A stretch of DNA of 64,000 bases from Rhizobium sp. FY34 (GTDB lineage: Bacteria > Pseudomonadota > Alphaproteobacteria > Rhizobiales > Rhizobiaceae), in NCBI RefSeq assembly GCF_005222845.1, contig NZ_STFZ01000005.1, forward strand, positions 186,001 to 250,000. The letters run 5' to 3'. The position numbers and the translations under genes were made by a program. Under the pieces are notes generated by a model. That model made no database searches, had not been told where the DNA came from, and saw nothing but the letters and a program-made list of their open reading frames with translations. Shown here piece after piece: positions 12,312 through 28,612 of the stretch (position 1 is its first letter; every line of letters starts with the position of its first letter).

Positions 12312-13159
12312 CCCTTGGTCGCTCCAAGCGTCAGGCCGGCAATGAAATGCCGTTGCATCAGGAAAAACATGGCAACCGGCGGCAATGCCGCGACGATCGA
12401 GCCGGCGGAAACCAGGTGCCAGGCGGCAACCCATTGGCCGTTCAGCGAATTGAGGCCCGCCGTCACCGGCATGGCGTGCTGGCCCTGCACCAGCACGGTT
12501 GCCCAGAAATAGTCGTTCCAGACAAAGGTGAAGATGAGTACGGAGAGCGCGGCAATGGCCGGACGCATCAACGGCAGCACGATATAGCGGAAGATCCGCC
12601 ATTCCGACACGCCTTCGACACGGGCAGATTCAATCAGCGCAAATGGCAGGCCCTTGATGAAATTGCGCATGAACAGCGTGCAGAAACCGGTCTGGAAGGC
12701 GACATGGAACAGCACGAGCCCCATGGTCGTATCGTAGAGCCCCAGTTTCAGCGTCAGGTCACGCACCGGCACCATGAGGATCTGGAAGGGTATGAAATTG
12801 CCGGCGACGAACATGAAGAACAGGATCAGGTTGCCCTTGAACTTGTAGACGGCGAGCGCAAAGCCGGTAAGGCAGGAGAGCGCCACGGCACCGATCACCG
12901 TCGGGATCGTCACCTTGAACGAGTTGAGGATGTAGAGGCCGATCGGCGAATCCCGGAAGACGGCCGTATAGTTCTCGACGCCGGCAAAGCCGGAGGGAAT
13001 GCCGAAATAATTGCCGGCAGCCAGATCGCCTGCCGGGCGCACGGAGGTAACGGCAACGCCGATCAACGGCAGGAGCCACAGAAACAGTGCCAGCGGCAGA
13101 AGTAGCTTGTAACCTGCCTGAACAAAGGGCGATGCCTTCTGGATGGGTGTCGGGAACAT
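12308..13159 (-). CDS. Galactoside ABC transporter permease, MalG/LacG type
   Basis: Inner-membrane permease, 283 aa, with six predicted spans, the first near residues 15-35. The EAA loop (ESARVEGVSEWRIFRYIVLPLMRP) near residue 190 docks to the MalK-type ATPase. It ends GLTLGATKG, the usual MalG-family C-terminus. The ATG shares one base with the stop of the upstream permease (TGATG). The partner MalF-type permease and binding protein are directly upstream. Confidence 0.92.
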   Translation of the reverse strand: MFPTPIQKASPFVQAGYKLLLPLALFLWLLPLIGVAVTSVRPAGDLAAGNYFGIPSGFAGVENYTAVFRDSPIGLYILNSFKVTIPTVIGAVALSCLTGFALAVYKFKGNLILFFMFVAGNFIPFQILMVPVRDLTLKLGLYDTTMGLVLFHVAFQTGFCTLFMRNFIKGLPFALIESARVEGVSEWRIFRYIVLPLMRPAIAALSVLIFTFVWNDYFWATVLVQGQHAMPVTAGLNSLNGQWVAAWHLVSAGSIVAALPPVAMFFLMQRHFIAGLTLGATKG

Positions 13160-14067
13160 CAGGCGTTCCTTTCCTGCGAGAGCATGCGCACGATGAACAG
13201 CGTGATGAAGATCATCATAATGAGGAAGAGGATGACGGCAATCGCCGCGCCATAGCCCATGCGGTATCCGTATTCGGACAGCGCCTGCTCATACATGAAG
13301 TAGGAGAGAACCTGGCTTGTGCCATAGGGACCGCCGGCGGTCATCACCGATACGAGATCGAAGGACCGCAGCGAACCGATGACCGTGACCACCATGGCGA
13401 TGAAGGTGGCAGGCGCCAGCTGCGGCAGAACCACGAACCAGAGAAGCTTTGCCCCCTTGGCACCATCCATGCGGGCCGCCTCCACCTGCTCGGGATTGAT
13501 GTTGTTGAGACCCGTCAGATAGAGGATCATGCAATAGGCAGTCTGCGGCCAGAGACCGGCTGCAATAATGCCATAGGTGACATAGCGTTCATCGGCGAGC
13601 ACGGCGACTTCTTCGCCGGTCAGCCATTTGAGCAGTTGCGAGAACAGCCCGAAATCCGGAGCGTAGAACCAGGTGAACATCAGCCCGACAACGACCTGGC
13701 TGATGACGAAGGGAAAGAAGAACAGCGACTTGTAGAGCCTTATGCCGGTGACCGTCTGGTTGAGGAAGAGCGCCACCGCAAGCCCCGCCGGGATCGACAG
13801 GAGATAGAGCACCAGCCAGATGATGTTGTTCTTCAGCGAGGTGTAGAAGTCTTCATCATCGATAAGCTCGACATAATTGCCAAGCCCGATCCAGACCTTT
13901 TCGCCCAGACCGTCCCAGTCATGGAAACTGATCCAGATGGATTGGAAGATGGGCACCAGCACATAGATAACAAACATCAGAAGGCCCGGCGCCAGAAACA
14001 GCCAGGGCGCAAGCTTCTGCTGGTTCTTCTTCCAGAAGCCGGGCGCGGAAGAGACGGCCTGGGTCAC
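13159..14067 (-). CDS. Galactoside ABC transporter permease, MalF/LacF type
   Basis: Inner-membrane permease, 302 aa. It starts at GTG 14067 with GAGG 7 nt upstream. The first span is near residues 17-38 (WLFLAPGLLMFVIYVLVPIF), followed by the SFHDWDG periplasmic stretch typical of MalF/UgpA proteins. The EAA loop is EAARMDGAKGAKLLWFVVLPQ near residue 210. It forms a heterodimer with the next permease. Confidence 0.92.
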   Translation of the reverse strand: MTQAVSSAPGFWKKNQQKLAPWLFLAPGLLMFVIYVLVPIFQSIWISFHDWDGLGEKVWIGLGNYVELIDDEDFYTSLKNNIIWLVLYLLSIPAGLAVALFLNQTVTGIRLYKSLFFFPFVISQVVVGLMFTWFYAPDFGLFSQLLKWLTGEEVAVLADERYVTYGIIAAGLWPQTAYCMILYLTGLNNINPEQVEAARMDGAKGAKLLWFVVLPQLAPATFIAMVVTVIGSLRSFDLVSVMTAGGPYGTSQVLSYFMYEQALSEYGYRMGYGAAIAVILFLIMMIFITLFIVRMLSQERNA

Positions 14068-14104
14068 GGCAACACCTCGGGATATTTCAAAGGACGGGGG
14101 AATA

Positions 14105-14141
14105 CCGGGCGCCGGCTCCTGATTGGAGACACGGCACCCGG
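14105..14141 (-). terminator. Intercistronic hairpin between galactoside-binding protein and permease genes
   Basis: CCGGGCGCCG (14105-14114) pairs with CGGCACCCGG (14132-14141), with one G-U pair. Inside the loop CTCC and GGAG extend the structure. It lies 15 bp after the binding-protein stop, with no T-run. The likely role is 3'-end protection or partial termination that favours the binding protein. Confidence 0.65.
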
Positions 14142-14156
14142 CACTGGGAGGATGGG

Positions 14157-15389
14157 TTATTTGTAGACGCGAGCCTGGACCTTATCGAGGCGCGCAAGAA
14201 TGGCATCGAGCTTGTCTGGCTTGACCATGAATTCCTGGAAGCTTTCCATGCCGGCCTTTGCCATATCGGCCGGTGCATCACGGTCATAGAACTGAGCGAG
14301 CGCATAGGCATTGGACAGCATTTCAAAACCTGCCGCCAGGAACGGATCGTTGGACTTGGTTGCCTTGTTGTTGATCGGCAACTGGCCAAGCGTCGCATTC
14401 ATCTTGGTCTGCGTTTCCGGTAGGGCCAGATAGGCCAGGAACTTGCGGGCATCCGCCTTGTTCTTGGCGCCGGAGGGGATGTGGAAGGATTCGGTCGGCG
14501 CGTCTTCCGCCATCGGAATGCCGGGGGTAATCGTCGGGAATTGCAGGAAACCGATCTGCTCTTCCTTCAGGCCGCCGTCCTTCATCGTGGCAACCGCGAA
14601 ATTGCCCATCAGATACATGGCAGCCTTGCCCTGCACCATCTGCGGCACTGCATCCTGCCAGTCGATGGCGGCGTGGTTGGCGTTGAAATAGCCCGGCTTG
14701 ACAAGCTCGCCCCACTTTTCAAACACGGCCTTCACGCGTGGATCGGTGTAGGGAACCTTGCCCGCTGTCAGGTCCATGTGAAACTCATAGCCGTTGACGC
14801 GCAGGTTCAGATAATCGAACCAGCCACCGGTCGGCCACAGGGCCTTGGTGCCGATGGTAAACGGCGTTATGCCGGCAGCCTTCAACTTTTCGCAGGCAGC
14901 GAGCAGTTCCGCCCAGGTCTTCGGCGGGGTGATGTTCTTCTCGGCAAAGATGTCCTTGCGGTAGTAGATACCCCATTGATAGGTCGAGTAAGGGATGCCC
15001 CACTTCTTGCCGTCGATTTCCATCGATTTGGTGGCGGACTTCAGCTGATTGTTGAGATCACCCTGGGCCCACAGGTCGCTCACGTCTTCAAACAAGCCGG
15101 CCTTGACGAAGGGCGCCATGCGGTTGCCGGAATACCAGGACACGACATCCGGAGCGTCCGCCGTCAGGAAGTTGCGGATGGCGGATTTGTAGCCTTCATG
15201 GTCAAAATTGTTCCATTTGACCTTGATATCCGGATTGGCCTTTTGGAAATCAGCGATCAGCTGTTCCATGGCCTTTTTCGGCGCCGGATCGGACTGGTCG
15301 GAATTGATAACCAGTTCGCCGGCTGCGGCGGACCCAAGCGTCAGAGCATAGACAAGGCCAAGGCCAGTCAGATATTTCAGAGACTTCAT
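14157..15389 (-). CDS. Galactoside-binding protein of a sugar ABC transporter (family 1)
   Basis: Periplasmic receptor, 410 aa. A Sec signal peptide of about 23 residues ends SAAAG, followed by an ELVINSDQSDP start. Family-1 sugar-binding features include the YSGNRMAPFVKAGLFEDVSDLW and YRKDIFAEKNITPPKTWAELL segments. ATG 15389 has GGGAGG 5 nt upstream; an upstream in-frame start at 15491 would prepend 34 non-signal residues. It is the first gene of the operon and divergent from a MelR-like activator. Substrate is inferred from the co-encoded alpha- and beta-galactosidases. Confidence 0.9.
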   Translation of the reverse strand: MKSLKYLTGLGLVYALTLGSAAAGELVINSDQSDPAPKKAMEQLIADFQKANPDIKVKWNNFDHEGYKSAIRNFLTADAPDVVSWYSGNRMAPFVKAGLFEDVSDLWAQGDLNNQLKSATKSMEIDGKKWGIPYSTYQWGIYYRKDIFAEKNITPPKTWAELLAACEKLKAAGITPFTIGTKALWPTGGWFDYLNLRVNGYEFHMDLTAGKVPYTDPRVKAVFEKWGELVKPGYFNANHAAIDWQDAVPQMVQGKAAMYLMGNFAVATMKDGGLKEEQIGFLQFPTITPGIPMAEDAPTESFHIPSGAKNKADARKFLAYLALPETQTKMNATLGQLPINNKATKSNDPFLAAGFEMLSNAYALAQFYDRDAPADMAKAGMESFQEFMVKPDKLDAILARLDKVQARVYK

Positions 15390-15551
15390 AGCTTCCTCCC
15401 AAAATAGCCATTGCGATCCTGCATTGAAGATCGGTGCACTGCGCCCGCCTCTCCCGCAAACGCCGCTTGACAGTGATGGAGAAAGCCGCAACTTTCCTCC
15501 GCATTTCCATAAGAAAATTCCGGTATCCTAAGCTTCGATAGGGGATTGCAT

Positions 15552-16478
15552 TTGGCTCACCGTTCCTTGGCCATCAATCATCTGGGTGCAACGCCCGTTC
15601 ACCCGCATCACGACCCGGCGCATCCGCTTGTCGTGTTCGGCGATCACCAATTCTGTGCGGGCAAGATCATGGAAGTGCAGCGTATGGCCGGCCCGCATAT
15701 GCACAGCCAGATCGAGCTGAACTTCGTCCTGAAAGGCAAGATGACCTACTGGTTCGATGGGCGCGAACTGACGGTGGATGAGGACCGGCTCTGCCTGTTC
15801 TGGGGCATGATCCCGCACCAGGTGATAGATAGAGACGAAGGTACGCAGTTCATCTGCCTTTACGTTCCGATGTCGGTGTTTCTCGGCTTTGCCAGTCTCA
15901 GCCGTTTCCGCGATGCGGTGTTTCGCGGCGCCGTCATCGAAGCGCTCGACATTCGCGGCTGGGACCGCGAGGTGTTCCAGCGCTGGCGCGAGGAGCTTCT
16001 GTCCGGCGATCCGGAAGCTGCCGAAATCGTGCGCGCGGAACTGACGGCGCGCGTCATGCGCATCGAGCGCGAAGGCTGGCGGGATCTGCGGCAACAGGGG
16101 GCAGCCCTTATCAGCAATGGCAAGCGCGACGCCGACTGGGTGGTGCATGTGGAAAAGATGCTGCGCTTCATCGGTGAAGGGGCGCTGACACAGATCTCGG
16201 CCGACGATGTGGGCCGTGCGGCCGGTCTGCATCCCAACTATGCCATGACATTGTTTCGCAAGGCCGTTGGCATGACGATCAACCAGGCGATCGTGCGCCA
16301 CCGGCTGGATACCGCGCAATCCTTGTTGATCGCCACCGATCTACCGATCACCGAGGTGGCTTACGAATCCGGCTTCGGTTCGCTTTCCACCTTCTATGAC
16401 GCCTTTCAGAAGCGCTTCAAGGAAAAGCCGGTGCAATATCGCCGGCGCATGCGTCCCGCAAGCGCAGCTGCGGCATGA
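15552..16478 (+). CDS. AraC-family activator, MelR-like
   Basis: Probable melibiose/galactoside-responsive activator of the divergent operon. It has an N-terminal cupin sensor with PHMHSQIELNFVLKG, and LFWGMIPHQ, both recalling E. coli MelR. The C-terminal double helix-turn-helix (about residues 205-300) includes AYESGFGSLSTFYDAFQKRF. I chose TTG 15552 because AGGGGA (15540-15545) stands 6 nt before it; the in-frame TTG at 15546 is too close. It shares a 156-bp divergent intergenic region with the binding-protein gene. No operator could be assigned by eye. Confidence 0.85.
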   Translation: MAHRSLAINHLGATPVHPHHDPAHPLVVFGDHQFCAGKIMEVQRMAGPHMHSQIELNFVLKGKMTYWFDGRELTVDEDRLCLFWGMIPHQVIDRDEGTQFICLYVPMSVFLGFASLSRFRDAVFRGAVIEALDIRGWDREVFQRWREELLSGDPEAAEIVRAELTARVMRIEREGWRDLRQQGAALISNGKRDADWVVHVEKMLRFIGEGALTQISADDVGRAAGLHPNYAMTLFRKAVGMTINQAIVRHRLDTAQSLLIATDLPITEVAYESGFGSLSTFYDAFQKRFKEKPVQYRRRMRPASAAAA

Positions 16479-16613: not shown

Positions 16614-17444
16614 ATGGACTGTGATCGATTTCAGGTGAAGATCTGGGGAGCCAGGGGCAGCATTCCCGTGGCCGGCCAGGACTTTCTCAAATATGGCGGC
16701 AACACCCCATGCGTCGAGGTGCGGTGCGGCGACTACAAGCTGATCTTCGATGCCGGTTCCGGCATTCGCGAGGCAGGGCTTGATATGCTGGCGGACGAGA
16801 CCCGCCAAATCGATGTGTTCTTCTCGCATTGCCATTATGACCACATCATCGGCCTGCCCTTCTTCAGACCGCTTTATAGCCCCTCCATCGTCGTGAATGT
16901 CTGGTCCGGCCATATGGCCGGCATCATGACGACGGCGGAAATGATCAAGCAATTCGTCAGCCCGCCTTATTTTCCGGTGAAGCTCGACATCTGCAAGGCC
17001 TCGCTCAACTTCCGTGATTTTCGCGCCGGAGACGTGCTGTCGCCACGTCCCGGCATTTCCATTCGCACCTTCACCCTCAATCATCCCGGCGGCTGCATCG
17101 GCTACCGCATCGAATGGGGGGCCAAGGCGGTGGCGCTTGTGTTTGATATCGAACACCAGCCGGGCATTCTCGATCCAACCGCACTCGAACTGATGGCGGA
17201 TGCCGATCTTGCCATCTACGATTCGGCCTTCACGGAATCGGAAATGGACCGCTATCGGGGCTTTGGCCATTCCACCTGGGAACAGGGCGTGAAGCTGGCC
17301 AAGCAGGCGAAGACGAAGAAGCTGATGCTGTTCCACCACGCCCCCTCGCGCACCGATGCCGAGATGGCGCTGATCGAGCGGCTGGCACAGGAAGAATTTC
17401 CGGCCACGCTAGCAGCGCGCGACGGCATGTTGCTCGACATCTAA
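16614..17444 (+). CDS. MBL-fold metallo-hydrolase, possible phosphodiesterase of the cyclic-nucleotide cluster
   Basis: A 276-aa metallo-beta-lactamase-fold enzyme. The metal motif HCHYDH (H72, H74, D76, H77) follows an N-terminal IWGARGSIPVAG and a YGGNTPC segment. Later candidate ligands are NHPGG (about residue 158), VFDIEHQ and FHHAPS. The GxRGS/YGGNT subfamily resembles RNase Z/PhnP-like phosphodiesterases. No signal peptide, so cytoplasmic. It stands 143 bp before the ferredoxin-cyclase on the same strand, so cyclic-nucleotide or phosphodiester hydrolysis is a reasonable inference but unproven. GGGGAAG lies 13 nt upstream, rather far. A 5-residue ORF starting at ATG 16604 overlaps the start and might couple initiation. 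Confidence 0.8.
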   Translation: MDCDRFQVKIWGARGSIPVAGQDFLKYGGNTPCVEVRCGDYKLIFDAGSGIREAGLDMLADETRQIDVFFSHCHYDHIIGLPFFRPLYSPSIVVNVWSGHMAGIMTTAEMIKQFVSPPYFPVKLDICKASLNFRDFRAGDVLSPRPGISIRTFTLNHPGGCIGYRIEWGAKAVALVFDIEHQPGILDPTALELMADADLAIYDSAFTESEMDRYRGFGHSTWEQGVKLAKQAKTKKLMLFHHAPSRTDAEMALIERLAQEEFPATLAARDGMLLDI

Positions 17445-17587
17445 AAGCTGCAAGGATCTGGTCGATCCGCGAAACGTGATGAGCCAGAGCCCAGGGACTG
17501 GCACCATATGCCGGAACGGTGATTTACACCGCAAATCAAAACTGCCATTCACTGAAGCCGAGGAACAGGCTGCGAGGCTCTACATCC

Positions 17588-19306
17588 ATGGCGGCTGACG
17601 TCAAAGACCGCATTTTTTCCGAGCGCCGCATCCGGCGCGCCCGCCTTGTTTCCGGTCTGGTGATCTTCCTCTTCATGATCACCCATCTGAGCAATCATGC
17701 CTTCGGGCTGATCTCCGTCAGCGCTGCCGACGAGGCGCGCCGCTGGCTGCCGTTCATCTGGCATAACCCGGTGGGTACGGTACTGCTTTACGGGTCGTTC
17801 CTCGTCCATATCGGGCTGACCCTGCGCTCCATCTACAAGCGCCGAAGCCTCGTGATGCCGAAATCGGAAGCCGCGCAGATCATCCTGGGCCTGGCCGTTC
17901 CGCTTCTCATCATTGACCACATCATCGGCACGCGCATTGCTTCCGGCCTATTTGCGTTTCGCAGCAATTACGAAAACATCGTCCACATCATGTGGACGAA
18001 ATCACCCAGCGACGGCCTGCGCCAGTCGATCGCCATCGTAATCCTATGGGCACATGGCTGTATCGGCATTCATTTCTGGCTGCGCTATCGGCCATGGTAT
18101 CAGGGACTCACCTCGTGGCTTCTGCCGCTTGCCATCCTGCTACCCATCCTGTCGCTGCTCGGCTTTGCACAAATGGGCCGCACCATCGCCAGCCCAACCT
18201 TCCTGCTCAGTGGCTATCCGGGCGGAAATTATGATCCGACGACACTGACCGCCGAGGCCACGCATACCTTGCGGATCATCCAGATCTGCGCCTATTCCGC
18301 CTTTGGTCTGGCGGTCGCTATCGTTTTTTTCCTGCGTATCCTGCGATGGATGAAGGAGCGTGCGCATCTCATCACCATCCGCTATCCGAATGGCGAAGCC
18401 ATCAGCGTGCCGCGCGGCTTTACCGTGCTCGAAGCAAGCCGGATGGCGGGCAAGCCCCATTACTCGGCCTGCGGTGGCAAGGGCCGATGCTCGACCTGTC
18501 GTGTGCAGGTGATTGAGGGCGAGGAGACGCTGCCGGCCGCCGAACCGCTGGAACAGCGCACCCTGACCCGCATCAATGCCGGACCCGGCGTGCGGCTTGC
18601 CTGCCAGCTGCGGCCAAAGGCGAATGTGATGCTGGTGCCGCTTCTTGTTGCCATGCCGGAAACCGATGTCGATCCGAGCAATTACGAGGCCGTGCCCGGA
18701 CGCGAACGAGAAATTGCCGTGCTGTTTTGCGATTTGCGCAATTTCACCACGCTGACCGAAACGCGCCTGCCCTTCGATATCGTCTTTCTGCTCAACCGCT
18801 ATTTCGGCGTCATAGGCCGTGCCGTCGAGGAAAGTGGCGGCCGGATGGACAAGTTCATCGGCGATGGCGCCATGGCCCTGTTCGGTATTTCCGGCTCGAC
18901 CGAAGATGCCTGTCGGCAGGCCTTGCAGGCGGCAGCGCGCATCCTTGCCGGCATAGACGAGTTGAACCGGCAGTTGGCCAAGGAGCTTTCCACGCCGCTG
19001 CGCATCGCCATCGGCATCCATACCGGCCCCGCCGTCGTTGGAACGCTCGGCTATGGTGCAGCACGAAACCTGACGGCTGTCGGCGATACGGTCAATGTCG
19101 CAAGCCGGCTTGAAACGGTTGCCAAGGATTTCGATGCAACGCTGGTCATCTCCGCGCCGGTGGCGCGCCTTTCGGGTCTCGACACGTCGGCGTCAAACGC
19201 GCGCGATATCGCCATTCGTGGTCGCAGCGAAATGCTTCAGGTCTATATCTTCGACGAAGCCGCCACGGCCACGCTGAACCTTGCAACAGAGGCCGTGCCC
19301 GCATAA
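17588..19306 (+). CDS. Membrane adenylate/guanylate cyclase with [2Fe-2S] ferredoxin domain
   Basis: A three-part protein of 572 aa. Residues 1 to about 255 hold five or six membrane spans with many His residues (ITHLSNH, LVHIGL, IIDHIIG, HGCIGIHFWLRYR), resembling succinate-dehydrogenase-type cytochrome b anchors. Residues about 258-355 form a plant-type ferredoxin with C295, C301, C304 and C339. Residues about 375-555 form a class III cyclase with a complete active site: metal Asp D382 and D426, purine-selecting K422 and D500, transition-state N503 and R507. This suggests cAMP synthesis gated by redox state, light or oxygen through the iron-sulfur cluster. ATG 17588 is preferred over ATG 17519, which would add 23 hydrophilic residues. 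Confidence 0.9.
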   Translation: MAADVKDRIFSERRIRRARLVSGLVIFLFMITHLSNHAFGLISVSAADEARRWLPFIWHNPVGTVLLYGSFLVHIGLTLRSIYKRRSLVMPKSEAAQIILGLAVPLLIIDHIIGTRIASGLFAFRSNYENIVHIMWTKSPSDGLRQSIAIVILWAHGCIGIHFWLRYRPWYQGLTSWLLPLAILLPILSLLGFAQMGRTIASPTFLLSGYPGGNYDPTTLTAEATHTLRIIQICAYSAFGLAVAIVFFLRILRWMKERAHLITIRYPNGEAISVPRGFTVLEASRMAGKPHYSACGGKGRCSTCRVQVIEGEETLPAAEPLEQRTLTRINAGPGVRLACQLRPKANVMLVPLLVAMPETDVDPSNYEAVPGREREIAVLFCDLRNFTTLTETRLPFDIVFLLNRYFGVIGRAVEESGGRMDKFIGDGAMALFGISGSTEDACRQALQAAARILAGIDELNRQLAKELSTPLRIAIGIHTGPAVVGTLGYGAARNLTAVGDTVNVASRLETVAKDFDATLVISAPVARLSGLDTSASNARDIAIRGRSEMLQVYIFDEAATATLNLATEAVPA

Positions 19307-19356
19307 CGGGTCAAACAAGCCTAGGACCGATCGATTTACAATGTTAGGACTGGCGC

Positions 19357-20511
19357 ATGCGTGCCAAAGGCCATGATCCGTTTTACCAGTCGCTCCCCGT
19401 CTTCACCCAGTTCGAAGGGGTGGCGGATACGCGCAACTACATGCCCCTGCCGGGGGGCTGGGTGCTGGCGGTGGCCGATGTCATCGGCTCAACCAAGGCC
19501 ATCGCCGCCGGTCACTACAAAGCCGTCAACATGGCCGGCGCCGCCGTCATCTCGGCGGTTCTCAATGCGGTCGGCACGCAGGATTACCCCTTCATATTCG
19601 GTGGTGATGGCGCCATGGTGGCCCTTCCCGCTGCCCATGCAAACAATGCCGCGCAAGCCTTGAGCGATGTGCGTAAATGGACAGCTGGCGAACTTGGTCT
19701 AGAGCTTCGCATCGCGCTTGTTCCGGTGGATGATGTCCGGGCGCAAGGGCTGGAGGTTTCCATAGCCCGCTTTGCCGCAAGCCCGCACGCCTCCTACGCC
19801 ATGTTCAATGGCGGCGGCGCAAGCTGGGCCGAGCAGCAGATGAAAGCCGGCCGCTACGCCATCGATCGGAAAAGTCTGTCCCCGCCCGATCTTACCGGCC
19901 TTTCCTGCCGCTGGAGCCCGATCCTGGCGCAAAATGGCGAGATCGTCTCGATCATCGCCAAGCCGACCTCCCCGGACAACATGCAAGCCTTCCGCCGCCT
20001 AGTGTCGGAGATCATCTCGATCACGGCCGAACAGAACCGGGCCGGTCACCCGGTTCCCGAACAAGGACCACGGCTTGCCTTTTCCAGAGAAGGGATTGCT
20101 GCAGAGGTGGCGGCGACCCCGGCATCTGCCGGTCGCGTCATCCCGTGGTTATCGATTGGTCTTCAGGTGTTTCTCACCTATGTGCTGCACAGACTGAACA
20201 TCACGCTTGGGCGTTTTGATCCGCGCAGCTATACGCGCGACGTGGCGGCAAACTCCGATTTCCGCAAGTTCGATGACGGGCTGAAGATGACGGTCGATGT
20301 TGACGAGGCCCACCGCCTGCGCATTGAGGCCCTGCTTTTGCAGGCTGAAGCTGCTGGCGTGTGCCATTACGGCCTGCACCGGCAGGATAGCGCTTTGGTT
20401 ACCTGCCTGGTCCTGAGCCCGATGACACGCGACCACATGCATTTCATCGATGGCGCGCATGGCGGCTATGCTCTGGCCGCCAGCCAGCTATCGCACAAAC
20501 ACTCATCCTGA
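19357..20511 (+). CDS. DUF3095-like protein with cyclase-like motifs
   Basis: A 384-aa protein I recognise as DUF3095-like; its function is unknown. The first half mimics a class III cyclase: AVADVIGSTKAI near residue 39 resembles the first metal-binding strand, and FIFGGDGAMVALP near residue 80 resembles the GDG hairpin. The NxxxR transition-state motif is missing, so it may bind but not cyclise nucleotides. A hydrophobic segment (about residues 262-282) could be a membrane anchor, and a C-terminal domain follows (about 300-370). It is 50 bp after the ferredoxin-cyclase, probably the same transcript. Confidence 0.75.
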   Translation: MRAKGHDPFYQSLPVFTQFEGVADTRNYMPLPGGWVLAVADVIGSTKAIAAGHYKAVNMAGAAVISAVLNAVGTQDYPFIFGGDGAMVALPAAHANNAAQALSDVRKWTAGELGLELRIALVPVDDVRAQGLEVSIARFAASPHASYAMFNGGGASWAEQQMKAGRYAIDRKSLSPPDLTGLSCRWSPILAQNGEIVSIIAKPTSPDNMQAFRRLVSEIISITAEQNRAGHPVPEQGPRLAFSREGIAAEVAATPASAGRVIPWLSIGLQVFLTYVLHRLNITLGRFDPRSYTRDVAANSDFRKFDDGLKMTVDVDEAHRLRIEALLLQAEAAGVCHYGLHRQDSALVTCLVLSPMTRDHMHFIDGAHGGYALAASQLSHKHSS

Positions 20512-20682
20512 CGCCTGTGGCAAATGTGTCTCTCGTTTTCGACACCTGCACCCAATAGGCGAAAATCCTAATCCATGCCATTGTTTGCGGATCATACCGC
20601 ACCGATCTAAAGCGATACCAGACGCCGACAACCGCATCCGAGTGTTGCAGCGAGCGGGCGCCTCTATCGAACAGGTACACCC

Positions 20683-22035
20683 ATGACGACGAATACTGGA
20701 ACGGTTTCCGCGCTTTTCATGGACAAGGTCGCCGATTGGCTGACGCGCGCGGCTCTGTCAGGCCGTTCGCTGGAAGATATCGTGCGCGGCTTTTGTGATC
20801 GTATTGCCGCCGCCGGTCTTCCCATCGCTCGGGTGCATCTTTCATTTGCCATGCTCCACCCCCTTTATGATGCCCTGGGCTTCACGTGGCGCGCGGCAGA
20901 CGGCCTGACCGTGGAAGGCTATCGTTACGATGCGGGTAATCCGGACATATTCCTGAAAAGCCCCTATTACAAACTGCTCAGCTCCAACCTGGATTATATG
21001 CGCCGGCGCATTCCGGCCGAAGGTCCTGTCGAGTTCCCGGTCTTCGAGGATCTGCGTCGCGAGGGCATCACAGATTATATCAGCTTCATGCAGCCGTTTG
21101 GCGACCAATCGGTGCAAGGAATGATGGGTTCCTGGTCCACGGATGCCAAGGACGGTTTCGATGACGAGACGATCGGCGCGCTTCTGCGTATCCAGAACCA
21201 TCTGGCGGTCGCGGCAAAAATGGCGGTTCTCGACAAGCTCGCCAACAATATGCTGACCACCTATCTTGGCGGCGACGCCGGAAAGCGGGTTTTGAACGGC
21301 CAGATCCGCCGCGGCGACGGCGAAACCATCCGCGCGGCACTAGTGATGGGCGATATGCGCCACTCCACCATGCTAGCCGAAAGAGAGGGCCGCCAGACCT
21401 ATATCGATACGCTGAACGATTTCTTCGATGCGATTGCCACGCCATTCAATCGCAATGGCGGGCAGATCCTCAGTTTCATGGGCGATGGGTTTCTGGCCGT
21501 CTACCCGTGCGACCGCCACCGCGAACCATCGCAGCAAGCCTGCCAGGCTGCCATTTCCGCTGTCCGCCAGGCGCAGATCCGGGTTGCCCATCTCAACACC
21601 GAGCGGCGAAAAAAACATAAGGCCGTCATCCATTATGGTATCGGCCTGCATGTCGGCAATGTCATGTTCGGCAATGTGGGCTTGCAGGAACGCCTGACCT
21701 TTTCGGCTTTCGGATCAGCGGTCAACGAGGTGTCTCGCCTGCAATCGCTCAGCAAGAAATATGATCGCGAAGTGATCGCCACCCAAGCCTTTGCCAATTA
21801 TTGCGGCGGAGACTGGACGACGCTCGGCCAGGAAAAGCTGCGCGGCGTGCGCCAGAAGGTGACGGTTCTCGAGCCCATGCCTCTGGAAGCGGGAGAGCGA
21901 GTGGACGAAGTGGTGGCAGATTTGCGCCGGCATGCGCTGTCGGAAGCCGAGCGGCTGATCCTGCTTCACCGCGATGCCGTCGAGATCGATCCGAAGTCCG
22001 GTCCCCGGCCCATGCTGAGCAAGTTTATGCCGTGA
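20683..22035 (+). CDS. Class III nucleotide cyclase with substituted substrate-selecting residues
   Basis: A 450-aa soluble protein. An N-terminal sensor-like region (about residues 1-210) precedes a class III cyclase domain (about 218-400). Metal residues D224 (VMGDMRHST) and D268 (SFMGDGF) are kept, as are transition-state N348 and R352 (AVNEVSR). The purine-selecting Lys is S264 and the partner Asp is S345. Non-standard pairs like this occur in some class III cyclases, and they leave the product (cAMP, cGMP or other) open. No membrane span. It lies between the DUF3095-like gene and the ABC gene, with 171 and 199 bp flanks. Confidence 0.87.
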   Translation: MTTNTGTVSALFMDKVADWLTRAALSGRSLEDIVRGFCDRIAAAGLPIARVHLSFAMLHPLYDALGFTWRAADGLTVEGYRYDAGNPDIFLKSPYYKLLSSNLDYMRRRIPAEGPVEFPVFEDLRREGITDYISFMQPFGDQSVQGMMGSWSTDAKDGFDDETIGALLRIQNHLAVAAKMAVLDKLANNMLTTYLGGDAGKRVLNGQIRRGDGETIRAALVMGDMRHSTMLAEREGRQTYIDTLNDFFDAIATPFNRNGGQILSFMGDGFLAVYPCDRHREPSQQACQAAISAVRQAQIRVAHLNTERRKKHKAVIHYGIGLHVGNVMFGNVGLQERLTFSAFGSAVNEVSRLQSLSKKYDREVIATQAFANYCGGDWTTLGQEKLRGVRQKVTVLEPMPLEAGERVDEVVADLRRHALSEAERLILLHRDAVEIDPKSGPRPMLSKFMP

Positions 22036-22171
22036 ACTGGCAACACCCAGCGCGGGCCGGCAATTGCGTTCTCTCCCTCGCTCTCCTGTATAAAGACGGG
22101 GGTTCAACCGTCCCTGCACATTGCCAAATCTTGCCAATACAAAGATACTCGCTGGAGAGATCAGGCAGATT

Positions 22172-22228
22172 ATGGCCGAAAAGCCTTCCGGCGTCAGGCA
22201 AACTGCATTCGACAGGCGCTCAGTGTAG
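22172..22228 (+). other. 18-codon ORF in frame with, and abutting, the ABC gene
   Basis: ATG 22172, with AGG 6 nt upstream, opens MAEKPSGVRQTAFDRRSV and stops at TAG 22226-22228. The next codon (GTG 22229) continues in the same frame into the ABC protein. It may be a leader peptide, or the original N-terminus of the ABC protein cut off by a nonsense codon. Upstream in this 199-bp gap only a TATAAAG string (about 22090) stands out. Confidence 0.3.
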
Positions 22229-22234
22229 GTGAAG

Positions 22235-24946
22235 ATGGAAAAAGGCCTGACGCGGTACATCTGGTCCAATACCTACAAGCAGCAGATCTGGATTCTCCTG
22301 ATCGTCGCAGCCTCGATGGTTCCCTACTTCCTCTCCTTCGACCTGCCCAAGCGGATCGTCAACGGGCCCATCCAGGGAGAGGGCTTCGAGACTGCTGAGG
22401 CAACGCAGCGCTTTTTCGCCATTGCCTTCAACCTGCCCTTCATCGGTCCTATCGACTTGTTTTCCGGCTTTGAGCTGAACCGCGTCGAGATGCTGATGGC
22501 GCTGAGCACCGTTTTCCTCGGTCTCGTCGTGCTCAACGGCTTGTTCAAATTCTACATCAACACCTACAAGGGTCGCCTCGGCGAACGCATGCTGCGGCGC
22601 ATCCGCTTCGAACTGGTCGATCGTGTGCTGCGTTTTCCGCCCGTACAGTTCAAGCGCGTCAAATCCGCCGAAATCGCAACAATGATCAAGGACGAGGTAG
22701 AACCGCTCGGCGGCTTTACCGGCGATGCCTTCGTCCAGCCGGCGCTTCTGGGCGGACAAGCGCTGACAGCGCTGGTCTTCATCGTCATCCAGAATTTCTG
22801 GCTCGGCATGATTGCCGCATCCATCGTCTGCGTGCAGGCCGTCATCATTCCACGCATGCGACGCAGGCTTCTGGAACTGGGGCGCGAGCGCCAGCTGACA
22901 GCGCGACAGCTCTCCGGCCGGGTGAGCGAGATCGTCGATGGCATTCACACCATTCATGGCCATGACACGACCAACCTGGAGCGGGCCGACATCGCCTCGC
23001 GGCTCGGCATCATCTTCCAGATCCGCTACGACCTGTATCAATGGAAGTTCATGGTGAAATTCATCAACAACTTCCTCGCCCAGGTCACTCCATTTCTGTT
23101 CTATGCCATCGGTGGCTATCTGGCGCTGCAGGGACGTCTCGACATCGGCCAGCTGGTGGCTGTCATCGCCGCCTACAAGGATCTGCCCGGCCCTCTCAAG
23201 GAGTTGATCGACTGGGATCAGGCTCGCCAGGACGTGCAGATCAAATATGCGCAGGTCGTGGAACAGTTCGACGTGGAAGGGCTTGTCGCGCCTCATGTGC
23301 ACAGCGTCGTCACAGACCCCGTGCCACGCCTGTCGGAAGCTTTGGTCATCACCAATCTCGTGCTGAGCGATGACAGTGGCGCGCGGCTGCTGCACCGTAC
23401 CTCGCTGGATGTCCAGCCCGATGAAACGGTGGCCATTCTGGGGCAGAACGGTAGCGGGGGCGAGGCCCTAGCCGAAGCACTGGGCCGTATCCTCTGGCCG
23501 GAAGCCGGCCGGATCACGATTGGCGGCAAGGATCTGCTCGATATCCCGGAATCAGTCACGGGCAGGCGGATATCCTTCGTCGCCTCCGACACCTATTTCT
23601 TCTCTGGCAGCCTGCGGGATAATCTTCTCTACGGGCTGAAGCACGCGCCCCTGACCCAGGCGCAGTACCAGGGCGAAGATCAGCGCAAGTTCAAGCGCAA
23701 GCTTCTGGAAGCGCTCCGCTCAGGAAATCCCGCGCTCGACCTCAACAGCGACTGGATCGACTACGGGTCTGCTGGCGCAAGCGGGCCGGATGATCTCTTG
23801 AAGGTGATCCGCCCTGTGCTGGATGCCGTGACCATATCGCAGGACATTTTCGATCTGGCCTTGCGGTCGCAGGTGGATACGGATGCCCACCAGACTCTGA
23901 CCGATCGTATCGTGGAGGTGCGGCAGGCACTTCGCCGCCGCCTCAGCGAAGAAGACCTCGGCCACATCGTCGCCCCCTTCGAGGCCGATGCCTATAATCG
24001 CCAGGCGACGGTTGGTGAAAACCTGCTATTCGGCACGATGAAAAAGCCGATGAATCCGCAGATATTGGCGACCCATCCTTACTTCCGCAGGATTATCAGC
24101 GAAACCGGTCTTGGCGCCCATCTTTACGAGATGGGTCTGGAAATTGCCGAAAACGCGGTCGAATTGTTCCGCGACCTGCCACCAGACCATCCCTTTTTCC
24201 AGCAGCTGACCTTCATGAGCGCCGATGATATTCCGGCTTACGAAAACCTCCTGCAAAAACTGCAGGGCACGACCATCGACAAGGCATCGGCCAGCGAGCG
24301 CAGCGCCATCATTCGCCTCAGCTTTTCCTATATCGAGCCGCGCCATCGCTTCGGCCTTCTGACACAGAAGCTGATGGACGAAATCGTCGAGGCGCGCCGG
24401 CAATTCTACGCCAATATTCCAGCGGATCTGTCTGCGGCGATTGAACGCCACGATGCGCAGCGGTTCACCGCATCAACATCGCTGATGGACAATGTCCTGT
24501 TTGGCCGTCTCTCGCTTCAGGAAGTCGATACCACGGAGCGCATCCGTGCCATTACCCGCAGCGTGTTTGCCGAACTGGGGCTGGAAGACCATGTTCTCTC
24601 CATCGGTCTGGATTTCGAGGTCGGCTCGCAGGGACGACGCCTCACCAATGTACAGCGCCAGAAACTCAACCTGGCACGCGCCCTGTTGAAGCGCTCCGAT
24701 TACTTCATCTTCAACCGGCCGCTTTCGGCACTCGATCAGCGTGCGCAGGATTTGATCGTGACACATGTCATGCAGGACCTGCACAAGGACGGGCAAAGGC
24801 CTGCCATCATCTGGGTACTGCCCAATGCGCATGTCAGCGAATTGTTCGACAGGATTCTAGTGTTCGATAATGGAAACCTTGTCGAAAGCGGCCGATTCGA
24901 AGAGCTTGCGACCACAAACGGGATGTTCAAGCAGCTCCTGTCGTAA
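22235..24946 (+). CDS. ABC exporter-like protein with degenerate, expanded ATPase domain
   Basis: About 904 aa. Residues about 1-330 form an ABC-exporter membrane domain with about six spans. The nucleotide-binding domain is abnormal. Walker A reads GQNGSGGEA (from residue 403), lacking the catalytic Lys. The Q-loop Gln is replaced (VASDTYFF). The signature is VGSQGRRLTNVQRQ instead of LSGGQ, and Walker B is YFIFNRPLSALD with Asn827 in place of Asp. About 290 extra residues separate the Q-loop from the signature. Across this span the NLLYG/NLLFG/NVLFG motif occurs three times, at N463, N596 and N753. ATG 22235 is preferred over GTG 22229 because AGG stands 5 nt before it. The frame is intact throughout. 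Likely a non-hydrolysing or atypical ATPase; cargo unknown. Confidence 0.85.
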   Translation: MEKGLTRYIWSNTYKQQIWILLIVAASMVPYFLSFDLPKRIVNGPIQGEGFETAEATQRFFAIAFNLPFIGPIDLFSGFELNRVEMLMALSTVFLGLVVLNGLFKFYINTYKGRLGERMLRRIRFELVDRVLRFPPVQFKRVKSAEIATMIKDEVEPLGGFTGDAFVQPALLGGQALTALVFIVIQNFWLGMIAASIVCVQAVIIPRMRRRLLELGRERQLTARQLSGRVSEIVDGIHTIHGHDTTNLERADIASRLGIIFQIRYDLYQWKFMVKFINNFLAQVTPFLFYAIGGYLALQGRLDIGQLVAVIAAYKDLPGPLKELIDWDQARQDVQIKYAQVVEQFDVEGLVAPHVHSVVTDPVPRLSEALVITNLVLSDDSGARLLHRTSLDVQPDETVAILGQNGSGGEALAEALGRILWPEAGRITIGGKDLLDIPESVTGRRISFVASDTYFFSGSLRDNLLYGLKHAPLTQAQYQGEDQRKFKRKLLEALRSGNPALDLNSDWIDYGSAGASGPDDLLKVIRPVLDAVTISQDIFDLALRSQVDTDAHQTLTDRIVEVRQALRRRLSEEDLGHIVAPFEADAYNRQATVGENLLFGTMKKPMNPQILATHPYFRRIISETGLGAHLYEMGLEIAENAVELFRDLPPDHPFFQQLTFMSADDIPAYENLLQKLQGTTIDKASASERSAIIRLSFSYIEPRHRFGLLTQKLMDEIVEARRQFYANIPADLSAAIERHDAQRFTASTSLMDNVLFGRLSLQEVDTTERIRAITRSVFAELGLEDHVLSIGLDFEVGSQGRRLTNVQRQKLNLARALLKRSDYFIFNRPLSALDQRAQDLIVTHVMQDLHKDGQRPAIIWVLPNAHVSELFDRILVFDNGNLVESGRFEELATTNGMFKQLLS

Positions 24947-24981
24947 TATCCTGTTTGAAGCCTATAGGGGGTACCACGCTG

Positions 24982-25446
24982 ATGCTATTGAAGGACGAGG
25001 TTGAAATGTTGCGGCGTGTGCCGCTTTTCTCCCGCATTGCTCCGGCAAAGCTCAAGCTATTGGCCTTTGCTTCCGAGCGGATGAGCTGTCGCGAGGGACA
25101 GAACCTCTTCAGCCAGGGCGATACGGGGGATGCTGCCTATGTCATCCTGTCGGGCACCGCAGATATCGTGGTGAGTTCCGAATCCGGTGAAATCAAGGTT
25201 GCAGAACTCGAGAAAAACTCCATTGTCGGCGAGATCGCCATTCTTTGCGATATGTCGCGCACGGCAACGGTGCGGGCAACGTCACAGCTTGAACTGCTCA
25301 AGATCAGCAAGGAAAGCTTCCTTGACCTGATGAATGATTTCCCCGACATGGCCGTGGAAATCATGCGGGTGCTTGCCAACCGCCTGAATCATACGACCAG
25401 CGAACTGACGGCAGCCCGCAGCAGGGAGCAGCGCGTCAACTCCTGA
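24982..25446 (+). CDS. Single-domain cyclic nucleotide-binding protein
   Basis: A 154-aa protein made almost entirely of one CNB (Crp-type sensor) domain. FSQGDTGDAAYVILSGTADIVV forms the beta roll. The phosphate-binding cassette GEIAILCDMSRTATVRA has the ligand-contacting E84 and R93. There is no helix-turn-helix, so it is not a transcription factor; it more likely binds a partner protein. It follows the ABC gene by 35 bp. ATG 24982 is taken, 10 nt after AGGGGG; TTG 24955 is a possible longer start. It is the likely receptor for the messenger made by the two cyclases upstream. Confidence 0.88.
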   Translation: MLLKDEVEMLRRVPLFSRIAPAKLKLLAFASERMSCREGQNLFSQGDTGDAAYVILSGTADIVVSSESGEIKVAELEKNSIVGEIAILCDMSRTATVRATSQLELLKISKESFLDLMNDFPDMAVEIMRVLANRLNHTTSELTAARSREQRVNS

Positions 25447-25509: not shown

Positions 25510-25542
25510 AAACGCCGCGCACGAGAACCGTGCGCGGCGTTT
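25510..25542. terminator. Bidirectional terminator between the cyclase cluster and pntB
   Basis: A perfect 14-bp stem, AAACGCCGCGCACG paired with CGTGCGCGGCGTTT around AGAAC. T-rich ends follow on both strands, stronger on the minus (TTTTAC). It lies between convergent genes, 63 bp after the CNB stop and 45 bp from the pntB stop. Confidence 0.88.
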
Positions 25543-25587: not shown

Positions 25588-27021
25588 TTACTTGATGAGC
25601 GGCAGAAGCTCGCTCACCGATTTCTTGGCATCGCCATAGAACATGCGTGTGTTGTCCTTGAAGAACAGCGGGTTCTCGATACCGGAATAGCCGGTTCCCT
25701 GCCCGCGCTTGGAGACGAACACCTGCTTTGCCTTCCACACTTCCAGAACCGGCATGCCGGCAATCGGCGAATTGGGATCTTCCTGCGCCGCCGGATTGAC
25801 GATGTCATTGGAACCGATGACGATCACCACGTCGGTCTTGGGGAAATCCTCGTTGATCTCGTCCATTTCCAGAACGATATCATAGGGCACCTTGGCTTCG
25901 GCCAGCAGCACATTCATGTGGCCGGGCAGGCGTCCGGCGACCGGATGGATGGCAAAGCGCACCTCCTTGCCGGCAGAACGCAGCTTGCGGGTGAGTTCGG
26001 ATACCGCCTGCTGGGCTTGCGCCACCGCCATGCCATAGCCGGGAACGATAACGACGCTGTCTGCATCGTTGAGTGCATTTGCAACACCATCGGCATCGAT
26101 GGCGATCTGTTCGCCGGAAATCTCCATGGCAGGCCCCGTTGTGCCGCCAAAGCCGCCGAGAATGACCGAGATAAACGAGCGGTTCATCGCCTTGCACATG
26201 ATGTAGGAAAGGATTGCCCCGGACGAGCCGACCAGCGCGCCGGTCACGATCAGCAGATCATTTCCCAACGTGAAGCCGATGGCAGCGGCTGCCCAGCCGG
26301 AATAGCTGTTGAGCATGGAGACGACCACGGGCATGTCTGCGCCGCCAATGCCCATAATCAGGTGATAGCCGATGAAGAAGGCGAGAAGCGTCATCAGGAC
26401 CAGCGCCCAGGCGCCGGCGCCATTGGCATAGGCCACCAGAAGGATAATGCTGAGCGCTGCGGCACCGGCATTCAGCAGATGCCCGCCCGGCAGTTTCTTC
26501 GCCTTGCCATCCACCTTGCCAGCAAGCTTGCCGAAGGCGATGATCGAGCCGGTGAAGGTGACGGCGCCGATGAAGACGCCGAGGAAGACCTCGACCTTCA
26601 TGATCGCCAGTTCCACCGGCGTCTTGTGGGCCAGGATCGCCGCAAAACCGGAGAGCGTCGAGCGGGTGGCCTCGTCCATGCCGGCGATGCGCCAGGCTTC
26701 GATATGGGTGTTGAAGCCGATGAAGACGGCGGCAAGGCCAACGAAGGAATGCAGGGCCGCCACCAGCTGCGGCATTTCCGTCATCTGCACGCGGGCAGCG
26801 ACATAGTAGCCGATGACAGAGCCGCCGGCGATCATCACCAGAATAATGAAGCCGTGGCCGACATCCGGGCTCAAAACGGTGGCGAGAACGGCAAGCGCCA
26901 TGCCGGCAATGCCGTACAAGACGGCGCGCTTGGCGCTTTCCTGGCCCGACAGTCCGCCCAGCGACAGGATGAAGAGAACGGCTGCAGCCACATAGGCTGC
27001 CGATACGATACCAAGTGTCAT
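25588..27021 (-). CDS. pntB: Proton-translocating NAD(P) transhydrogenase, beta subunit
   Basis: Couples hydride transfer between NADH and NADP+ to proton entry across the inner membrane. The 477-aa protein has about nine N-terminal membrane spans (residues 1 to about 270). The C-terminal NADP(H)-binding domain has [49 protein letters not shown] and [15 protein letters not shown] stands 7 nt before the ATG. It follows pntA by 19 bp. Confidence 0.96.
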
Positions 27022-27040
27022 GGTGTTATTCCTTCCCGCC

Positions 27041-28612
27041 TCAAGACTTCTGGAACATGGCGAGCATGCGCCGTGTCACGAGGAAGCCGCCGACGATGTT
27101 GATCGTCGCGATCAGCACCGACAGCGCGGCCAGAATGACCACCAGCCAGTTGCCCGACCCGATCTGCAGCAGAGCGCCGAGGATGACGATGCCGGAGACG
27201 GCATTGGTGACGGCCATCAGCGGCGTGTGCAGCGAATGGCTGACATTCCAGATGACCTGGAAGCCGATGAAGCAGGCCAGAACGAAGACGATAAAGTGGC
27301 TCATGAAGCTTGCCGGCGCAACGGAGCCGACCAGCAGCAACAACAGCGTGCCGATGGCCAAAAGCCCCACCTGGTTGCGAGTCTGCGTCTTGAAGGCCGC
27401 GGTTTCCTGGGCGCGCTTTTCCTGCGGCGTCAGTTCCTTCACCTTTTCCTTGGGCTTGGCAGCCGCAATCGCCTGCACCTTGGGCGGCGGCGGGGGATAG
27501 CTGACCGTGCCCTCGAAGGTAACGGTCGCGCCGCGAATGACGTCGTCTTCCATATTATGGACGACGACACCGTCCTTCTTCGGCGTCAGGTCCGTCATCA
27601 TGTGGCGGATATTCGTCGCATAGAGCGTCGAGGCCTGCGCCGCCATGCGGCTTGGAAAATCCGTATAGCCGACAATGGTAACACCATTGTCCGAGGTGAC
27701 CTTCTGGTCGGGAACGGTCAGGTCGCAATTGCCGCCGCGTTCGGCTGCCAGATCGACGACGACGGAGCCCGGCTTCATGGCAGCCACCATATCGGCTAGC
27801 CAGAGTTTCGGCGCATCACGGCCGGGAATGAGGGCCGTGGTAATGACGATGTCGATATCCGGCGCCAGTTCGCGGAACTTGGCGAGCTGCTTTTCGCGGA
27901 ATTCCGGCGAAGAGGGCGCCGCATAGCCACCGGTTGCCGCACCATCCTGGGCAGCTTCGAATTCGAGATAAACGAACTGCGCACCCATGCTCTCGATCTG
28001 CTCGGACACTTCCGGGCGCACGTCGAAGGCATAGGTGATCGCACCGAGCGAGGTGGCCGTACCGATGGCCGCAAGACCTGCAACGCCAGCGCCAATTACC
28101 AGAACCTTGGCGGGCGGCACCTTGCCGGCAGCCGTCACCTGACCGGTGAAGAAGCGGCCGAAATTGCTGCCGGCCTCGATCACCGCCCGGTAGCCGGCGA
28201 TATTGGCCATGGATGACAGCGCGTCCATCTTCTGGGCGCGCGAAATGCGCGGCACCATGTCCATGGCAATGACGCTGGCACCAGTGCTCGCGGCCTGGTC
28301 CAGAAGGTCCTTGTTCTGCGCCGGATAGAAGAAGGAAATAAGCGTCTTGTCCGGCGAAAGCCTAGCGATTTCGCCCGCTTCCGGCGGGCGCACCTTAGCA
28401 ATCACATCGGCGCCTTCATAAAGCGCTGCTGCCGTCTCCACCACATCCACGCCGACGGCACGATAGGCATCGTCGGAAAATCCCGCTGCCTTGCCGGCGC
28501 CCGCTTCCAACAGACAGGTATGTCCGAGCTTTTGCAGTTGAACCGCACTATCCGGCGTCAGCGCCACGCGCGCCTCGCCCAGATATATTTCCTTCGGTGA
28601 ACCGACCTTCAT
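27041..28612 (-). CDS. pntA: NAD(P) transhydrogenase, fused alpha subunit
   Basis: Carries the NAD(H)-binding domain and first membrane spans of the transhydrogenase. At 523 aa it is the fused, E. coli-like form; many alphaproteobacteria split it into PntAA and PntAB. It shows the RVALTPDSA start region, [23 protein letters not shown] for NAD (about residue 168), and a Pro-rich linker (YPPPPPKV, near residue 377). At the C-terminus are about four spans ending in FQKS. AGAGGA directly abuts the ATG, a tight Shine-Dalgarno spacing. It heads the pntAB operon. Confidence 0.96.

Follow-up and report, generated by a model that had tools for sequence, protein, structure and literature searches.

The stretch of DNA analysed here (hereafter the window) comprises 64,000 nucleotides of Rhizobium sp. 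FY34 and corresponds to C31:186001-250000 of a draft genome of 5.04 Mb in 37 contigs, 99.99% complete. At positions 16614-25446 it carries a run of six open reading frames (ORFs), every one on the plus strand, in which putative enzymes of cyclic-nucleotide metabolism stand beside an ATP-binding cassette (ABC) exporter-like protein and a small cyclic-nucleotide-binding (CNB) protein. The question raised by this locus is what a cyclic nucleotide would do next to an exporter-like protein that lacks the residues of an ATPase. Sequence comparisons indicate that the last two genes of the run, ABC and CNB, are what evolution keeps. They favor the reading, to which we assign a probability of about 0.55, that the two proteins form a membrane gate switched by a cyclic nucleotide instead of ATP, likely in a glycan pathway. 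The features of the run are as follows.

16614..17444, plus strand: MBL, hydrolase of the metallo-beta-lactamase fold (RNase Z/phosphodiesterase type), 276 aa; Pfam Lactamase_B_2 (PF12706), 62.4 bits
17588..19306, plus strand: FeCyc, 572 aa from ATG 17588 (GTG 17519 in the ORF list); Pfam Fer2 (PF00111) and Guanylate_cyc (PF00211)
19357..20511, plus strand: DUF3095 protein, 384 aa, predicted tandem class III cyclase-like folds; Pfam DUF3095
20683..22035, plus strand: Cyc2, class III cyclase, 450 aa; Pfam Guanylate_cyc (PF00211), 42.9 bits
22229..24946, plus strand: ATPase-dead type IV ABC-exporter-like protein, 905 aa; Pfam ABC_membrane and ABC_tran; family start probably ATG 22235
24955..25446 (start TTG 24955 or ATG 24982), plus strand: CNB protein, 163 aa; Pfam cNMP_binding (PF00027) alone
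25510..25542, either strand: 14-bp hairpin, likely a terminator shared by the converging CNB (plus) and pntB-like (minus) genes

Relatives of the ABC protein were sought in overlapping samples of genomes from the order, the class and the phylum, the source genome being included. At the level of the order (E <= 1e-100), 92 of 297 genomes had one; for the class (E <= 1e-90) the figure was 128 of 385. In the phylum sample (E <= 1e-60) it was 23 of 349, and by their kinship labels these 23 genomes all belong to the window's own class. Among loci from named organisms, the closest come from Agrobacterium vitis, Allorhizobium and Rhizobium. A CNB gene adjoined the ABC gene or was fused to it in 165 of 165 loci, which represent 164 distinct ABC proteins (L083 and L208 carry the same one) and to which some genomes contribute two or three loci. 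In a first set, CNB was located directly 3' of ABC in all 80 loci. In a second set of 85, it was separate but adjacent in 66 and fused at the C-terminus of ABC in 19, a proportion that is no fusion rate since 20 of these loci (L216-L235) were picked partly for long frames; fusion was seen in 3/60 loci chosen for breadth. When separate, the CNB gene starts right after the ABC gene or overlaps its end. Fusions such as those of Azospirillum oryzae (1074 aa) and Sulfitobacter sp. (1034 aa) belong to a type of evidence classically taken to indicate a physical complex. Two changes between the fused and separate states suffice on a FastTree tree built from the transmembrane domain (TMD) only, the backbone of which is weak. 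One relative of the ABC gene (L247, G922:C2:50231-52945) was seen to contain one in-frame TAG.

A preliminary description of this DNA had proposed the six genes as a single set. All six, with the domains assigned to them, were recovered at their places by ORF and Pfam analysis. By contrast, the complete set in the window's order was present in only 3 of the 80 loci of the first set (L011, L061 and L065; 10-kb flanks) and was rejected as a conserved unit, being a narrow version of a wider association. Scattered homologues devoid of shared synteny had been named in advance as evidence against the proposal; what was found is the constant ABC-CNB pair, with cyclase and MBL genes recurring beside it in Hyphomicrobiales. 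In the window, intergenic gaps in the run measure 50-193 nt, except for the 8 nt between ABC and CNB (35 nt with the CNB start at ATG 24982).

The broken ATPase noted in the preliminary description was confirmed for the window ABC protein, where G411/E412 stand in place of the Lys-Ser/Thr of Walker A, N829/R830 in place of the Asp-Glu of Walker B (R830 at the position of the catalytic Glu), LTNVQ in place of LSGGQ, and W862 at the position of the H-loop His. Motifs were counted in 65 ABC proteins: 60 came from the loci selected for breadth, and the other five are near relatives. None contained the complete set of ATPase residues: LSGGQ and the H-loop His were absent from all (the latter being Trp in 46), GK[S/T] was present in one, and Walker B Asp plus Glu in three. 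Four exporters of the source genome were aligned alongside, each in part: three retained Walker A and Q, and the fourth retained the signature, Walker B and His. Judging from these sequences, the ATPase is dead across the family. Decay of a pseudogene was considered and rejected, since the frames are of full length and conserved across Alphaproteobacteria.

Pfam recognised only ABC_membrane and ABC_tran in the window protein, with no C39 peptidase, and the best stretch of the ABC_tran match covered only model positions 1-80 of 137 (residues 388-483). An AlphaFold2 (AF2) model with a pLDDT of 85.9 was consistent with a TMD at residues 1-347 and a nucleotide-binding domain (NBD) split into segments 370-482 and 745-905 by an insert of about 260 aa, mostly helical, at 483-744. 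In fold comparisons, all 240 residues of the ComA NBD aligned at 2.4 Å to the region 365-905, and alignments with MsbA- and TM287-type chains ran along the protein for some 400-490 residues; further matches were TM287/288, TmrAB and SUR chains. On the basis of the model, the protein is therefore predicted to combine the TMD of an exporter with an NBD whose core is complete and carries the insert. By sequence and fold it shares this core with MsbA, NdvA, PCAT1 and TM287/288, differing from them in the absence of ATP-site residues and in the insert between the NBD halves. A motif that follows the Q-loop (NLLYG/NLLFG/NVLFG) occurs three times, at 461, 594 and 751, a pattern that would fit a duplication of the NBD's helical subdomain into the insert. 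The strongest constraint was found in the TMD, which contains 28 of 40 invariant columns in an alignment of 63 sequences. A passage of PMC10945364 names SMb20813 as the msbA homologue of Sinorhizobium meliloti; this protein is a candidate S. meliloti member of the family.

The partner protein conformed to the preliminary description of a CNB receptor devoid of a DNA-binding domain: within its 163 aa Pfam identified cNMP_binding alone and no helix-turn-helix or other DNA-binding domain. Residues E93 and R102 of the phosphate-binding cassette are present in the window protein, and across the family the Glu was kept in 80 of 86 and the Arg in 83 of 86 sequences. The phosphate-binding Arg is a hallmark of cyclic-nucleotide binders. 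Together with its constant adjacency or fusion to ABC, these features make CNB a predicted receptor subunit of that protein. As a CNB-bearing ABC exporter, HetC of Nostoc PCC 7120 is the nearest precedent; passages of PMC10986499 describe it as a combination of CNB, C39 peptidase and ABC exporter in which the CNB part is needed for function. Both there and here a CNB domain is tied to an ABC exporter. However, as far as those passages go, HetC has an N-terminal CNB, a C39 peptidase and an essential ATPase Glu, whereas in the window family CNB is a separate gene or a C-terminal extension, no peptidase domain was found and the ATPase motifs are lost.

A connection with glycans was suggested by the neighbours of the pair. 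Genes recurring beside it encode four glycosyltransferases, two of GT28 type and two of GT4 type, as well as a nucleotide-sugar dehydrogenase, a polysaccharide lyase, an SBP_bac_5 importer and a polysaccharide-deacetylase-like protein, the last of which was under the Pfam cut-off in the one example scanned. Part of the neighbour labels were assigned with a crude ORF picker, and among the ORFs that it left unlabelled some are antisense artefacts. The glycosyltransferase, deacetylase-like and importer genes, which are co-inherited with ABC, lay outside the view of the preliminary description. One GT28-type gene, GT28a, was present in 58 of 60 ABC-bearing genomes (59/61 with the source genome) versus 1/44 genomes lacking ABC (Fisher p ~1e-25), these 44 having been hand-picked, not drawn at random, from rows without an ABC match. 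In 47 of the 58 genomes the distance from GT28a to an ABC copy was at most 12 kb; this copy was the sampled one in 45 and a second one in two.

The source genome itself contains a second ABC-CNB pair, at C31:275.1-278.3 kb, with identities of 55% and 52% to the pair in the window. Beside it lie GT28a (C31:262.7 kb) and a weaker GT28-type match (260.3 kb), and its surroundings (L207, C31:268001-287000; C31:260298-263897) include deacetylase-like, GT4-type, nucleotide-sugar dehydrogenase, methyltransferase, importer ATPase and GT28-type genes. We infer that the locus may be split, the cluster in the window being its signalling half and having an ABC-CNB copy of its own.

The association of cyclases with the pair was assessed against the number of cyclases per genome. 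PF00211 proteins were counted in 61 genomes, 60 of which were compared with the cyclases near the ABC gene, the observed cyclases deriving from a profile built by us and the expected ones from PF00211 counts per genome. A cyclase was found near ABC in 26/60 loci versus 3.3 expected (simulation maximum 14; 0/200,000 simulations reached the observed value). The effect was carried by Hyphomicrobiales, with 24/33 loci versus 1.5 expected, and chance clustering in cyclase-rich genomes was rejected for this order from the per-genome counts, though not for other orders. On the same strand 3' of the pair, MBL followed by a cyclase was seen in six loci of the 85-locus set; in 12, a cyclase lay no more than 1.8 kb from the end of ABC.

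With 10-kb flanks a cyclase was seen in 16 of 80 loci. The apparent absence of cyclases from most Rhizobium loci was set aside as being, at least in part, an artefact of these flanks: longer ones revealed a Cyc2 orthologue (70-72% identity) in all four Rhizobium plasmid loci viewed. One stretch of Mesorhizobium pWSM1497 contains the window's parts other than FeCyc, its genes being three glycosyltransferases, methyltransferase, ABC, CNB, MBL, deacetylase, glycosyltransferase, DUF3095, nucleotide-sugar dehydrogenase, cyclase and importer. A cyclase, an importer, DUF3095, nucleotide-sugar dehydrogenase, three glycosyltransferases, ABC and CNB are found in R. phaseoli, R. binae and R. johnstonii. 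Stretches from Shinella, Azospirillum and Sulfitobacter contained glycan genes and no annotated cyclase.

The four genes preceding the pair were analyzed for residues expected of active enzymes. FeCyc comprises six hydrophobic segments, a 2Fe-2S ferredoxin domain and a class III cyclase domain, and in 19/19 sequences H33, H37, H74, H111 and H156, the cysteines C295, C301, C304 and C339, and the metal Asp residues D382 and D426 were invariant. By its sequence, this is the layout (six transmembrane segments, [2Fe-2S], adenylate cyclase) of S. meliloti CyaC, which passages of PMC10463352 describe as an adenylate cyclase that carries two hemes and a [2Fe-2S] cluster, responds to quinones and acts with Clr and CycR. 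The likeness extends to the conserved His of the membrane domain and to K422, T496, N503 and R507 of FeCyc, which correspond to K410, T484, N491 and R495 given for CyaC in the text of that paper, with a constant offset of 12. The two genes differ in their surroundings, since according to the same passages cyaC lies beside the regulators cycR and smc01817, while FeCyc lies beside MBL, DUF3095, Cyc2, ABC and CNB. Because the layout is shared with a cyclase reported to respond to quinones, the redox-driven signalling proposed in the preliminary description is plausible, and a redox input to FeCyc is likewise plausible by analogy. Ubiquinol oxidase (cyo) genes were observed near the ABC-CNB/glycan locus on plasmids of R. 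leguminosarum, R. phaseoli, R. binae and R. johnstonii, and in Shinella. Their proximity beside a quinone-sensing type of cyclase is suggestive.

Cyc2 has no hydrophobic segment and, hence, no predicted transmembrane region; D224 and D268 were invariant in 17/17 sequences, and Ser264 occupies the position of the adenine-specifying Lys. In the DUF3095 protein the Asp pair D41/D84 was invariant in 14/14. Its best VIA fold match, spanning most of its length, was 6yii, a class III adenylyl cyclase-like ATP-binding protein of Pseudomonas aeruginosa; the fold resembles this protein with no sequence match, and a sequence search against PDB chains gave nothing at E <= 1. Alignment to cyclases by hhalign gave probabilities of 11-14%, weak on their own, with the alignments placed at the two Asp motifs. 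The structural model predicts two tandem class III cyclase-like folds. No paper on DUF3095 was found in PMC full text (open-licence papers). The metal ligands of MBL (H72, H74, D76, H77, H157, D178 and H242, that is, HxHxDH and further residues) were invariant in 23/23 aligned proteins, and its score with NF041851, the one cyclic-nucleotide phosphodiesterase model that it matched, was 47.6 bits, far below the cut-off of 400. MBL is a candidate cyclic-nucleotide phosphodiesterase.

Put together, these features suggest how the proposed gate might operate. FeCyc would make cAMP according to the quinone or redox state, and Cyc2 would contribute cyclic nucleotide. The DUF3095 protein could bind a nucleotide and act as a regulatory partner, and MBL would lower the signal. 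Cyclic nucleotide made locally would bind CNB, which would dock on the pseudo-NBD, perhaps on the insert, and shift the state of the TMD; that state would in turn control export, flipping or assembly of a glycan. SUR and CFTR are cases in which the ABC exporter fold is used for gating or regulation, although they keep ATP-binding sites, belong to another subfamily and are not known to have a CNB subunit. A bolder version, which we put forward only tentatively, is that of a cyclic-nucleotide-gated ABC channel in a family spread through Alphaproteobacteria. ATP would have been traded for a cyclic nucleotide, the NBD would be a dead docking platform with an inserted domain, CNB would be the switch (fused in at least two lineages), and redox-sensing cyclases and a phosphodiesterase encoded at the same place would open and close a glycan channel or flippase. 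In the open-licence PMC papers, a scope outside which most subscription papers fall, no description of this gene set or of the ABC family was found.

Several observations weigh against the gate. On the nucleotide side, the cyclase co-occurrence that held in Hyphomicrobiales did not extend to other orders (2/27 loci versus 1.8 expected), where the messenger would consequently come from elsewhere or the ligand would be another one, and a cyclase was present in the examined stretch of only 5 of the 19 fused loci. The N-terminal, CNB-containing part of HetC bound ppGpp and not cAMP, according to passages of PMC10986499. The Walker A Lys is kept in 17/65 members of the ABC family, so ATP may still be bound without being hydrolysed. 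On the glycan side, 11 of the 58 best hits for GT28a lay away from known ABC copies, GT28a was missing from two of the 60 ABC-bearing genomes, and in the source genome the glycan genes lie 49-67 kb downstream of the window cluster.

Three other explanations were weighed. The ABC protein could be one half of an ATP-driven heterodimeric exporter, its ATP-competent partner being encoded elsewhere in the genome and CNB merely tuning it. One degenerate half is known in some heterodimeric exporters, TM287/288 and TmrAB were among the fold matches, and ordinary exporter-type proteins of about 600 aa are present in the genome. A gate is preferred over such a pump for two reasons. In an ABC dimer of whatever kind, the combined loss of Walker A, Walker B and signature would damage the two composite ATP sites alike, and another exporter-type half was found in only 1/165 loci (L219) by blastp with six exporters of the source genome, a search blind to very divergent halves. 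We consider the heterodimer unlikely. An equally small probability is given to the idea that the pair is a scaffold or sensor regulating glycosyltransferases or the oligopeptide-type importer, with the TMD as an anchor and no transport path. The lost ATPase and the repeated association with glycosyltransferases and an SBP5-type importer are in keeping with it, but the concentration of invariant columns inside the TMD goes beyond what a plain anchor needs.

The remaining explanation separates the cyclases from the pair: they would feed the usual transcription of the Crp/Clr type, the ABC-CNB pair would be a glycan component with another ligand such as ppGpp, and their closeness would reflect co-regulation only. 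The action of S. meliloti CyaC with Clr and CycR and the ppGpp binding by HetC, both as given in the passages cited above, point in this direction, as do the lack of cyclase enrichment in other orders and the fact that six of the eight PF00027 places in the source genome are not ABC partners. Against this stand the phosphate-binding Arg retained in nearly all CNB proteins (83/86, as above), the cyclase or MBL genes encoded co-directionally downstream of CNB at some loci, and the genomic position of the cyclases, since of only three PF00211 proteins in the source genome two, FeCyc and Cyc2, are encoded close to CNB. On balance this explanation also appears improbable.

ABC exporters are defined by ATP. 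A family lacking the residues for hydrolysis, most constrained in its TMD and accompanied by a CNB partner at all the loci examined, is a sign that a different nucleotide signal can be made to drive the ABC scaffold, a situation comparable to the gating of CFTR and SUR. If the gate is real, bacterial cAMP would also act directly on a membrane protein and not through a transcription factor. The CyaC-type cyclase and the nearby cyo genes raise the prospect that the system ties the state of respiration to a cell-surface glycan in plant-associated bacteria, and the DUF3095 protein would gain a testable role.

The strong terminator described at the end of the run stood in part. The hairpin at 25510-25542 has a 14-bp stem and folds strongly, a 51-nt stretch reaching -27.9 kcal/mol on the plus strand (z -4.9) and -30.4 on the minus strand, with 0/200 shuffles as low on each strand. 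However, its U tail is weak, it was absent from the output of a scan, and it also reads on the minus strand, so that it could serve the converging gene as well. That gene and its neighbour, at 25588-28612 on the minus strand, were named by eye as transhydrogenase-like pntB and pntA. No TetR-type gene was present within the six-gene run. Upstream, an AraC-type gene (15546-16478, plus strand) ends 135 nt before the MBL gene, and the region 12308-16478 was seen to contain, on the minus strand and divergent from this AraC/cupin regulator, genes named by eye as those of a sugar-type ABC importer.

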